DNA of 43,971 nucleotides, from the NCBI GenBank assembly GCA_020438215.1, contig JAGQUX010000022.1:1-43971 (forward strand). The letters run 5' to 3'. A model generated the notes under the pieces. That model did not search any database. It was not told the origin of the DNA and saw only the letters and a program-made list of their open reading frames with translations. Source of the DNA: Armatimonadota bacterium (GTDB taxonomy: Bacteria; Armatimonadota; Fimbriimonadia; Fimbriimonadales; Fimbriimonadaceae). Positions 18,009 through 20,715 of this stretch are shown here, in pieces (position 1 is the stretch's first letter; the number at the start of each line of letters is the position of its first letter). A program made the translations under genes and the position numbers.

Positions 18009-18044
18009 CCCTCTTTTGATGGATTGAATCTAAATACTCAGATC

Positions 18045-19826
18045 ATGCTGAGTTCGCTCTCTCTAGCCGCCGTGCTGATTTCTGCTCAGTCCGAGCCGGA
18101 ACTCAAGCTCACGACGCTTAAGCAGTATGTGGTCGAGGTGGTGCAACCTAACTGTGATACTCAGATCACGGTCTACCCAAGCCTTGAGAATTTCCCCGTG
18201 GTCTACTACTGGAATGGGAGAAAGTTTGACAACGAGGACTTGGATATCATCGCCTTTTCTACGAGATTGAAAGGTGAACTGCGGGAAGGGGAGTTTGCAT
18301 TTACTGGCCTTGCTTACCCGGAAGTTGATGATCGGATGACCTACATCAAGAGGGCACTTGCGAAATTTAGGGTGGATATTCAGCCGTATTTGAAGATGAG
18401 TGCGGAGGAACTGGGAAAACTCTTTGCCGAGACACTTCCCGTAGATCCAGAAGCCAAGTTAGATGATCACACGCTCCGAGAACTTCGGCTCATTTACGCG
18501 GCAGGATCAACCTATGGTCGCATTCTGACCGAGCATATCCTCACACAGGATTTTGATCAATTGGCGAGCGAAATCTATCGATCTGGTTTTGCTTTTGATC
18601 AAGTTCCGCTCAACTCAAATGGAGAAAAGATCGCAGAAGAAATCATAAAAAACAAAGATCGTTCTCGAATTCTGGTTGATAGGCTGGAGAGCTTCAGGAG
18701 ATTTCGCTATAGTAAGCCCGATATCGAAAAGAGTATTGTGGACAGCCGGGACAAACTGTCGAGCCACATTGGATTTGATGTTGGGAGTTTTGCGTCCGCA
18801 GAGTCGGGCCTGTATATGCAGATTTTTGGTACCAATAATGATGAACTCAATAACATCAGTGTTTCTCTTTTCTTCCCACCCGAGAAATTCACTCACCTGA
18901 CAAGAGAATCAGCAAACCCGATTGATGAAAAATGGAACATTACAAAACCGGGGACATACCTTTACAAGCGCTACCAAAAACATCCTGATCCAGAGTTTCC
19001 TGACTTGTTTTTCGCTGTTCATAAGGCCGCAGTAGGTGGTATCGCCATTGATCGGAAAATGAGTTATGTTGGCCCGTACTTCAAGGGCTTTGTATCAGTA
19101 CAGCGAGATTGGTCAAGTCAGAAGTTGAGCGTTGCGGCACCTGAATTGAGTGTTCGCAACGAAAGAGACTGGGTGATTGTAGAACATCAAAAACCAGTGG
19201 AATTTGATACGCGTATGGACTGGGAGAAGCTGTTGAAGCAAGTCGGAAAATACAATTCGCTTCAGACATATCGGGAGCTACGCGATTTTGCGTATGATAT
19301 GACTCCTGAAGAAATGAACCAGTGGATCAACTTGATCAATTGGAGTGGGCACAATTGGAAGTCAGGCATCTTTGAATTTTGGACTGCAATTGCTATGTGT
19401 CTGAATACAATGCCGGAAGAGGACTTAGATAGAAAGTACGGCGATCTGAAATTCCGGCTAATTGCTGATTCCAGCATATTACACCGTCCACAAAATTCGA
19501 AGTTTTGGAGTCATATGAGCAACTCGTTGACTATCTACGGCATTACTCCTAGGGAACGTTGGCTACCCCAGGAGTATCGAGACAATATGGGGTTCATTTT
19601 GAGTACGGGGGAATCAAAGGAGGGTGAAGATGGATGTACTGTTTCGTTTTATCGTCCGGAATACGGCACTCGAGAAGAATCTGCCGTGATTGGAAACTAT
19701 TCAGTTTCCTTTGGGATGGATATTGATTTGTTGAGCGCTCATATGCGTGGCTACTGTGGTGTCGGTTTGGGTGCCGCCCAGTTGGCGGCACCCAGTCAAT
19801 CACTTCTCATCCAAGAGGATTTTTGA
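18045..19826 (+). CDS. Large exported protein of unknown function
   Basis: ATG at 18045 gives MLSSLSLAAVLISAQSEP, a plausible signal peptide; an in-frame TTG at 18024 would extend it by seven residues. The product is 593 aa and mostly hydrophilic with many aromatic and charged residues. Two or more segments follow an E-W/F-D-x-R pattern (KPVEFDTRMDWEKLL), and an alpha-rich region near residues 405-460 has conserved-looking Trp residues (MNQWINLINWSGHNW). I recognise no domain. Its last 27 bases overlap the convergent selenoprotein gene. Codon use appears richer in A/T-ending codons than nearby housekeeping genes, by eye only. Confidence 0.7.
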   Translation: MLSSLSLAAVLISAQSEPELKLTTLKQYVVEVVQPNCDTQITVYPSLENFPVVYYWNGRKFDNEDLDIIAFSTRLKGELREGEFAFTGLAYPEVDDRMTYIKRALAKFRVDIQPYLKMSAEELGKLFAETLPVDPEAKLDDHTLRELRLIYAAGSTYGRILTEHILTQDFDQLASEIYRSGFAFDQVPLNSNGEKIAEEIIKNKDRSRILVDRLESFRRFRYSKPDIEKSIVDSRDKLSSHIGFDVGSFASAESGLYMQIFGTNNDELNNISVSLFFPPEKFTHLTRESANPIDEKWNITKPGTYLYKRYQKHPDPEFPDLFFAVHKAAVGGIAIDRKMSYVGPYFKGFVSVQRDWSSQKLSVAAPELSVRNERDWVIVEHQKPVEFDTRMDWEKLLKQVGKYNSLQTYRELRDFAYDMTPEEMNQWINLINWSGHNWKSGIFEFWTAIAMCLNTMPEEDLDRKYGDLKFRLIADSSILHRPQNSKFWSHMSNSLTIYGITPRERWLPQEYRDNMGFILSTGESKEGEDGCTVSFYRPEYGTREESAVIGNYSVSFGMDIDLLSAHMRGYCGVGLGAAQLAAPSQSLLIQEDF

Positions 19827-20327
19827 AGCACGTTCGATATCTCCGTTCGCCAGATCAACAACACGGATTTTTCCGGTGCGGTCAATCAGAACGTAATCGG
19901 GGAAGGAATCGCAACCCAGAGTTTTCATAAACTCGCCATTTTCAATAGCAACGGGGTATTTCATGCCCGTTTCTTTGACGGCGGTTTTGCCTTTTTCGGC
20001 ATCGGGGTCACTATGGATGGCGAGAATCACCAGCCCATCTTTGGAGTATTTCTCGTGAAGTTCGTTGAGCTTCGGCACGGAAGCTCGGCAGGGGCCTCAC
20101 CAGTGAGCCCAGAGATCAATGAGAACGACTTTGCCTTTCAACTTGTCCCAACTGAGGGGGAGATTGGAAGGGGTATTGATCCAAGCCGATGCCTTCAAAG
20201 CCGGGGGCGCTTTGCCTTCCCAGCTATTTTTGAGTTCATCGTTCTTGCCGCTTCGCTCTCGCTTGAAATCATCTTGGATTGGCGCAACGGCAAGCAGAGC
20301 CGCCATTGCTAATGCGAATGCTTTCAT
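19800..20327 (-). CDS. TlpA/thioredoxin-like selenoprotein, in-frame TGA read as selenocysteine (U77)
   Basis: Read through one TGA (20097-20099), this frame encodes a 175-aa thiol-disulfide oxidoreductase of the TlpA/ResA type. The signal peptide is MKAFALAMAALLAVAPIQ; GGAG lies just before the ATG at 20327. The core reads KVVLIDLWAHW-U-GPCRASVPKL, so TGA stands exactly where the first active-site Cys of CGPC is expected and C80 is the partner. The rest is intact: AIHSDPD, MKYPVAIENG, and a cis-Pro region SFPDYVLIDRTGKI. Both halves are in the same frame with no other defect, and a SECIS-like hairpin follows. Such proteins reduce or isomerise disulfides outside the cytoplasm. The alternative, a pseudogene with one nonsense change, is less likely given the exact position. 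It needs selA/B/C/D elsewhere in the genome. Confidence 0.85.
20067..20099 (-). promoter_or_regulatory. Bacterial SECIS candidate: UGA plus downstream hairpin
   Basis: On the minus strand the TGA (20099-20097) is followed by 10 nt. Then comes a perfect 7-bp stem GAGCTTC/GAAGCTC (20086-20080 and 20073-20067) with the loop CGTGCC. The apical loop begins 17 nt after the UGA and has G as its second base. These values agree with published bacterial SECIS rules (small loop, G among the first two loop bases, loop about 16-37 nt from UGA). SelB would bind it with Sec-tRNA. Confidence 0.75.
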
Positions 20328-20399
20328 AGCGACTCCATTATGCGGAAGGTCATCATCAAAATGCGAATTTGAGAGAATTGCTGGCTTTTGCAGATCGGC

Positions 20400-20428
20400 T
20401 TGTCAGAGGGCACGAAATTTGATACTCT
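20400..20428 (+). promoter_or_regulatory. Sigma70-like promoter with nearly leaderless transcript
   Basis: TTGTCA (20400-20405), a 17-bp spacer and TACTCT (20423-20428) form a good housekeeping-type promoter. The start site would fall near 20435, only about 5 bases before the ATG at 20440, and no Shine-Dalgarno precedes that ATG. Confidence 0.55.
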
Positions 20429-20439
20429 AGATACGTATC

Positions 20440-20715
20440 ATGCTGACTACCGCACTCTTTGTTTTTGCCGCCGCTCCCACATGGACAGTTGACTCAGTTC
20501 ACACTACTTTGGTGCACACCAGCCGACGAGGCCCTGCTGTGACTCAGGCAGTGACTCTTTCAAACGGTTCGGAGACAATGGAATTGACGGTCAAGAAGTT
20601 CCACATGCGATTTGATGGAACAGAAGGCTTACAAAAGGGCTTCAAAGTGACCTTCCTTAAAGAAGTCAAGTCAGGAGGATCTGTGACCCTCTCTGACCTG
20701 AAAATTGTGCGATAA
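20440..20715 (+). CDS. Small secreted protein of unknown function
   Basis: The 91-aa product begins MLTTALFVFAAAPTWTVDS, a short signal-like N-terminus. The mature part is a compact, probably beta-rich region of about 75 residues ending GGSVTLSDLKIVR. It has a recognisable promoter but no ribosome binding site, consistent with leaderless translation. It diverges from the selenoprotein gene (112-bp gap) and converges with the barrel-like gene at 20723-21346. No family is recognised. Confidence 0.6.
   Translation: MLTTALFVFAAAPTWTVDSVHTTLVHTSRRGPAVTQAVTLSNGSETMELTVKKFHMRFDGTEGLQKGFKVTFLKEVKSGGSVTLSDLKIVR

Follow-up and report, generated by a model that had tools for sequence, protein, structure and literature searches.

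The hairpin that follows an in-frame TGA in a TlpA/ResA-like thioredoxin-fold gene is very probably a bacterial SECIS element, a reading drawn from four features of the sequences compared: a conserved in-frame UGA, a covarying hairpin, a full selenocysteine (Sec) machinery in the host genome, and Cys-containing relatives that are free of the hairpin. The gene is located in a 43,971-nt stretch of DNA from an Armatimonadota bacterium (GCA_020438215.1, contig JAGQUX010000022.1), referred to below as the window, which denotes the whole stretch of DNA analysed (Table 1).

In the proposed mechanism, the C-terminal winged-helix end of SelB would bind the mRNA hairpin 11-30 nt past the UGA, and SelB, with its GTP and Sec-tRNA-Sec, would thereby reach a ribosome at this codon, where Sec insertion would compete with termination. 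The product would probably be exported and would act as a disulfide reductase of the TlpA/ResA-like kind, its active site formed by a Sec-Cys pair (UGPC). That SelB binds, that Sec is inserted and that the protein is exported and works as a reductase is presumed here from established bacterial Sec biology.

Table 1. Features of the putative selenoprotein gene and the Sec machinery genes of the same genome
Feature	Position	Strand	Evidence or score
Putative TlpA/ResA-like thioredoxin-fold selenoprotein gene	19800..20327	(-)	Redoxin/AhpC-TSA profile matches; conservation on both sides of the TGA
In-frame TGA, predicted to be read as Sec, first Cys of CxxC	20097..20099	(-)	Position shared by 30 distinct sequences; Cys forms have TGC/TGT
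10-nt spacer, UGA to stem	20087..20096	(-)	Length kept in compact-type relatives
Probable SECIS hairpin: GAGCTTC (20086-20080), loop CGTGCC (20079-20074), GAAGCTC (20073-20067)	20067..20086	(-)	Geometry, chance estimate, covariation
Terminal TGA, read as stop	19800..19802	(-)	Ends of aligned relatives
tRNA-Sec, anticodon TCA	C25:17782-17872		71.9 bits
SelB, with C-terminal SelB winged-helix domain	C24:36335-38134		361.7 bits
SelA	C29:7854-8996		447 bits
SelD, with its own in-frame TGA	C64:49067-49978		351 bits

The gene and its predicted product

The gene spans 175 codons, with Sec predicted at residue 77 (U77) within the motif WAHWUGPC, and its product begins with a hydrophobic, signal peptide-like N-terminus. 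The translated sequence matches the Pfam Redoxin (2.6e-19) and AhpC-TSA profiles, both above their cut-offs, and the ResA structure 4nmu (4.7e-28); its top NCBIfam match is ResA, with a score under the ResA cut-off. It combines a Redoxin/thioredoxin fold with a CxxC-type motif, as in TlpA/ResA-like reductases. Residues upstream and downstream of the TGA are conserved across relatives, and the aligned relatives terminate within about two residues of the window's terminal TGA, beyond which the frame yields unrelated sequence. A plasmid search returned nothing beyond TlpA/DipZ-like proteins of less than 60% identity. The 3' end of the gene is overlapped by a 600-codon open frame on the plus strand (18024-19826), for which there was no Pfam or NCBIfam match.

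Hairpin geometry and chance occurrence

The original prediction described a perfect 7-bp stem with a 6-nt loop, placed 10 nt past the TGA and carrying G as its second loop base. Exactly this is found on the minus strand, with 7/7 Watson-Crick pairs, a TGA-to-loop distance of 17 nt and a folding energy of -9.0 kcal/mol for the stem-loop alone. The consensus bSECIS model specifies a loop of 3-9 nt, a stem of 4-16 bp, a G at loop position 1 or 2, a spacing of 16-37 nt and an MFE of at most -7.5 kcal/mol (PMC13188914); the hairpin shows no departure from it, as had been claimed, in any constraint that sequence alone can show, and a U follows the loop G. An Rfam scan of positions 19500-20700 gave chance matches only.

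Synonymous-codon randomisation with the window's codon usage produced the exact Watson-Crick stem in 0.24% of cases, and any stem of at least 7 bp starting at +3 to +20 in 0.38%. Across the coding frames of the window, such a stem stands at +8 to +12 behind 0.21% of codons and at +3 to +20 behind 1.1%. The hairpin is unusual at a place named in advance and not rare genome-wide, and it is covariation that provides the decisive evidence.

A second hairpin of the window, with an 11-bp stem and a 5-nt loop (19768-19794, minus strand), directly follows the terminal TGA and, at -25 kcal/mol, is stronger than the SECIS hairpin. Its loop lies ~16 nt past the stop, a SECIS-like spacing, but neither of the two leading loop bases is G; the hairpin sits at the meeting point of two convergent frames and is probably terminator-like. 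Because so strong a hairpin can stand at a SECIS-like spacing behind a TGA that is presumably not a Sec codon, geometry by itself proves little.

UGA-form and Cys-form relatives

Relatives were sought in 113 genomes of the order, 291 of the phylum, genome contigs and 392 Planctomycetota-side genomes. Twelve UGA-form places were found across 11 genomes of the order, and the contig and Planctomycetota-side scans added more. After duplicate removal, the compared set held 30 distinct UGA sequences (the window's included), drawn from the window's phylum and Planctomycetota, and 15 Cys homologues; the UGA invariably occupies the position of the first Cys of the CxxC motif. The structure after the codon exceeds that of synonymous shuffles in strength in UGA forms (mean z -2.1, n=30) but not in Cys forms (mean z -0.4, n=15). 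One of two structures, compact or extended, is present in 29/30 UGA forms and 1/15 Cys forms, for which synonymous shuffles predict 4.9 and 0.5, a contrast that is descriptive, as the thresholds and the compact/extended grouping were chosen after the data had been seen.

Covariation of the compact hairpin

The compact stem occurs at identical columns (11-17 paired with 24-30, counted from the UGA) in 12 of the 30 UGA sequences. Compensatory changes, named in the original prediction as the check to make in homologues, are present in this set: 92.9% of cells are paired, with changes on both sides at three of the seven pairs and seven double-change cells, a count that exceeds the number of independent compensatory events because the compact-type sequences fall in few clades. 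The covariation score of 0.377 was reached by 0/500 shuffles, and slid-register controls were 29-55% paired. A single mismatched pair is found in 6 of the 12 sequences. The RNAalifold consensus of the 12 retained just the inner four stem pairs, together with three long-range pairs; it dropped the outer stem pairs because some of them mismatch, and a fixed-structure count was used in its place.

The stems themselves diverge considerably, from GAGCTTC/GAAGCTC in the window to GAGCTTC/GAAGCTT (one G-U) in L021, GAGAGTC/GACTCTC in L022, GAGGTGC/GCACCTC in L166 and GGGGTGC/GCACCTC in L076 and L171. Between the window and L022, the codons change from GCT to GAG and from AAG to ACT (A to E and K to T), and two adjacent pairs are restored. 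Both residues are altered while both pairs are kept, so pairing is preserved at the protein's cost. The loop bases G19 and T20 are unchanged in all 12 compact-type sequences; since CGTGCC also encodes part of a conserved S-V-P, this conservation is partly a coding effect.

None of the 15 Cys homologues carries the compact hairpin. Twelve of them could be compared column by column with the UGA forms: pairing is at chance level (42.2% paired versus 41.2% shuffled for both tested helices; 21% for the compact stem alone), and there is no consensus fold. Compensatory pairing is present in Sec forms and the hairpin absent from Cys forms, with 17 UGA forms structured differently. The original prediction had named two findings that would speak against it; stem changes lacking compensation were not the pattern observed, covariation being found instead, whereas Sec-codon homologues without a hairpin at this place do, taken literally, exist in the 17 UGA relatives, which carry other structures instead.

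The extended type and its second hairpin

The compact stem is missing in 17 UGA relatives, among them L017 and L019, which make up the sister clade. Most of the 17 have a longer stem-loop that starts ~11-13 nt after the UGA, as in L018 (GCGTCGAT...ATCGACGC); its register shifts between clades, and it was therefore not scored as a single covarying helix. All 17 (L017, L018, L019, L023, L024, L052, L053, L057, L075, L077, L156, L161, L165 and L167-L170) have a second hairpin at columns 52-60/64-72 after the UGA, past the published SECIS range, exemplified by AAGGACCAA-GGT-TTGGTCCTT and AAGGACCAG-GGT-CTGGTCCTT. This hairpin is 94.8% paired with 13 double-change cells (0/500 shuffles), and its codons are matched across the stem, TTG invariably answering CAA, and CTG the codons that end in G. 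Neither structure is present in one UGA form, L162, where a 7-bp stem closes a 3-nt loop and the register is shifted. A single compact-stem mismatch is found in each of three compact-type sequences (L079, L174 and L175), and two of them, L079 and L174, retain most of the second hairpin; the three may be intermediates between the compact and extended types. The original interpretation is upheld and needs correcting in one respect: as read from these alignments, the compact hairpin is the putative SECIS of several Planctomycetota and of the clade that holds the window, while other members do without it.

A parallel arrangement is seen in SelD. In 15 UGA-containing SelD genes of the order, the window genome's included, a hairpin at a similar place is directly followed by another (e.g. 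GGCGGAG-GTT-CTCCGTC), with varied stems, a descriptive result read from the folds; the Cys SelD L203 of the same set is without both hairpins. In the window genome's SelD (L158), the TGA is near the N-terminus (CAGUASKL) and a strong hairpin follows 7 nt later. The SelD of the order is mostly itself a predicted selenoprotein (L158; SelD loci L191-L216).

These observations would fit an alternative in which the UGA encodes Sec and a larger structure is the signal, with the compact hairpin either a mere component of that structure or incidental to it. The longer stem-loop and/or second hairpin of the 17 relatives, the SelD tandem hairpins, and an extra GGC/GCC mini-stem beside the UGA and a downstream fold, both predicted in the window, all point this way. 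We regard it as unlikely, though the best of the alternatives: in the window's own clade the second hairpin does not form, L016, L021 and L022 making 2, 5 and 6 of its 9 pairs, and the 7-bp stem is the part that covaries.

The Sec machinery and the remaining alternatives

The window's genome (2.64 Mb, 99% complete) encodes SelA, SelB, SelC and SelD. Among genomes of the order, SelB over the cut-off was found in 10/11 with a UGA form versus 47/102 others (Fisher p 0.008). The UGA-form genome without it, G087, is an 88% complete draft and has a UGA-containing SelD. In six genomes checked from the contig scan, SelB over the cut-off was present in 4/4 UGA-form and 0/2 Cys-form genomes. The Cys-form genome G001 has neither SelB over the cut-off nor SelD, and the protein tree nests its gene within the clade of UGA forms, a pattern consistent with Sec-to-Cys replacement. 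Two UGA-form TlpA-like genes occur in G029, one compact (L021) and one extended (L156), so that in this genome a single SelB probably handles the two kinds of signal.

It is very improbable that the TGA is a true stop or an assembly error in a broken gene, with the hairpin a product of coincidence and conserved coding. For a single sequence, the chance of the hairpin given the protein (~0.2-0.4%) is small and not nil, but the same TGA recurs in 30 sequences from two phyla, protein conservation continues past it, the Sec machinery is complete, and covariation overrides the amino-acid sequence. Least credible of all is a UGA read as another amino acid (e.g. Trp) with no SECIS, which would explain the apparent translation of an in-frame TGA, but TGA ends 8/21 long ORFs of the window, the codon alternates in relatives with Cys and not Trp, and a tRNA-Sec with a TCA anticodon is present.

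Evolution, known systems and significance

A protein tree built from 45 rows unites the window with L021 and L022 in one clade (98/92), which joins the extended-type L017 and L019 (97/97). The tree requires at least five changes between compact and extended types among UGA forms, a number that is approximate because many deep branches are weak. Whether one Sec codon of one protein family has been served by two RNA signals, the compact 7-bp hairpin and the longer stem-loop with second hairpin, which took each other's place five times or more in two phyla, with the second hairpin functional, previously undescribed and paralleled by the SelD tandem, is in our judgement evenly balanced.

Similar proteins have been reported in environmental surveys. 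Trx-like 1 (COG0526) of the GOS selenoproteome (PMC2398784) shares with the window protein a thioredoxin fold, Sec as the first residue of UxxC and the existence of Cys homologues, and the thiol-disulfide isomerase-like UxxC proteins of the Sargasso Sea set (PMC1088965) likewise share fold, Sec position and Cys homologues; both likenesses are at the level of published description. A ResA-like fold with Sec at the redox motif is also common to NF041054 (ResA-like, WAxxUGC motif), although the window protein (P0001), with UGPC, scores 44.2 bits versus a cut-off of 300 and is not a member. No description of a Sec-containing Trx/TlpA-like UxxC protein from the window's phylum was found in the open literature searched, and the literature searched yielded nothing relevant on bacterial SECIS elements with two or tandem hairpins or on selenoproteins of this phylum. 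According to the bSECIS review, some bacterial SECIS elements deviate from the consensus model and could make up classes of their own (PMC13188914). The class of element is known and the window's member is new within the scope searched; the parts that could be new are the second hairpin and the way in which two types of signal alternate at a single codon.

The window contributes a bacterial SECIS with good support from a lineage with almost no selenoprotein work in the literature searched, with RNA pairing maintained despite its amino-acid cost. Orthologous UGA codons with two interchangeable signals amount to a natural experiment in which the structural requirements of SelB become testable. 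Should the second hairpin have a role, any SECIS predictor that stops ~40 nt beyond the UGA overlooks some of the signal.

Longer TlpA-like frames of ~330-390 codons, each with one in-frame TGA, were also seen in the same order (G092:C39, G049:C1:1200525, G089:C3, G013:C178, G034:C9 and G035:C13), and these are possibly a second Sec-containing family.
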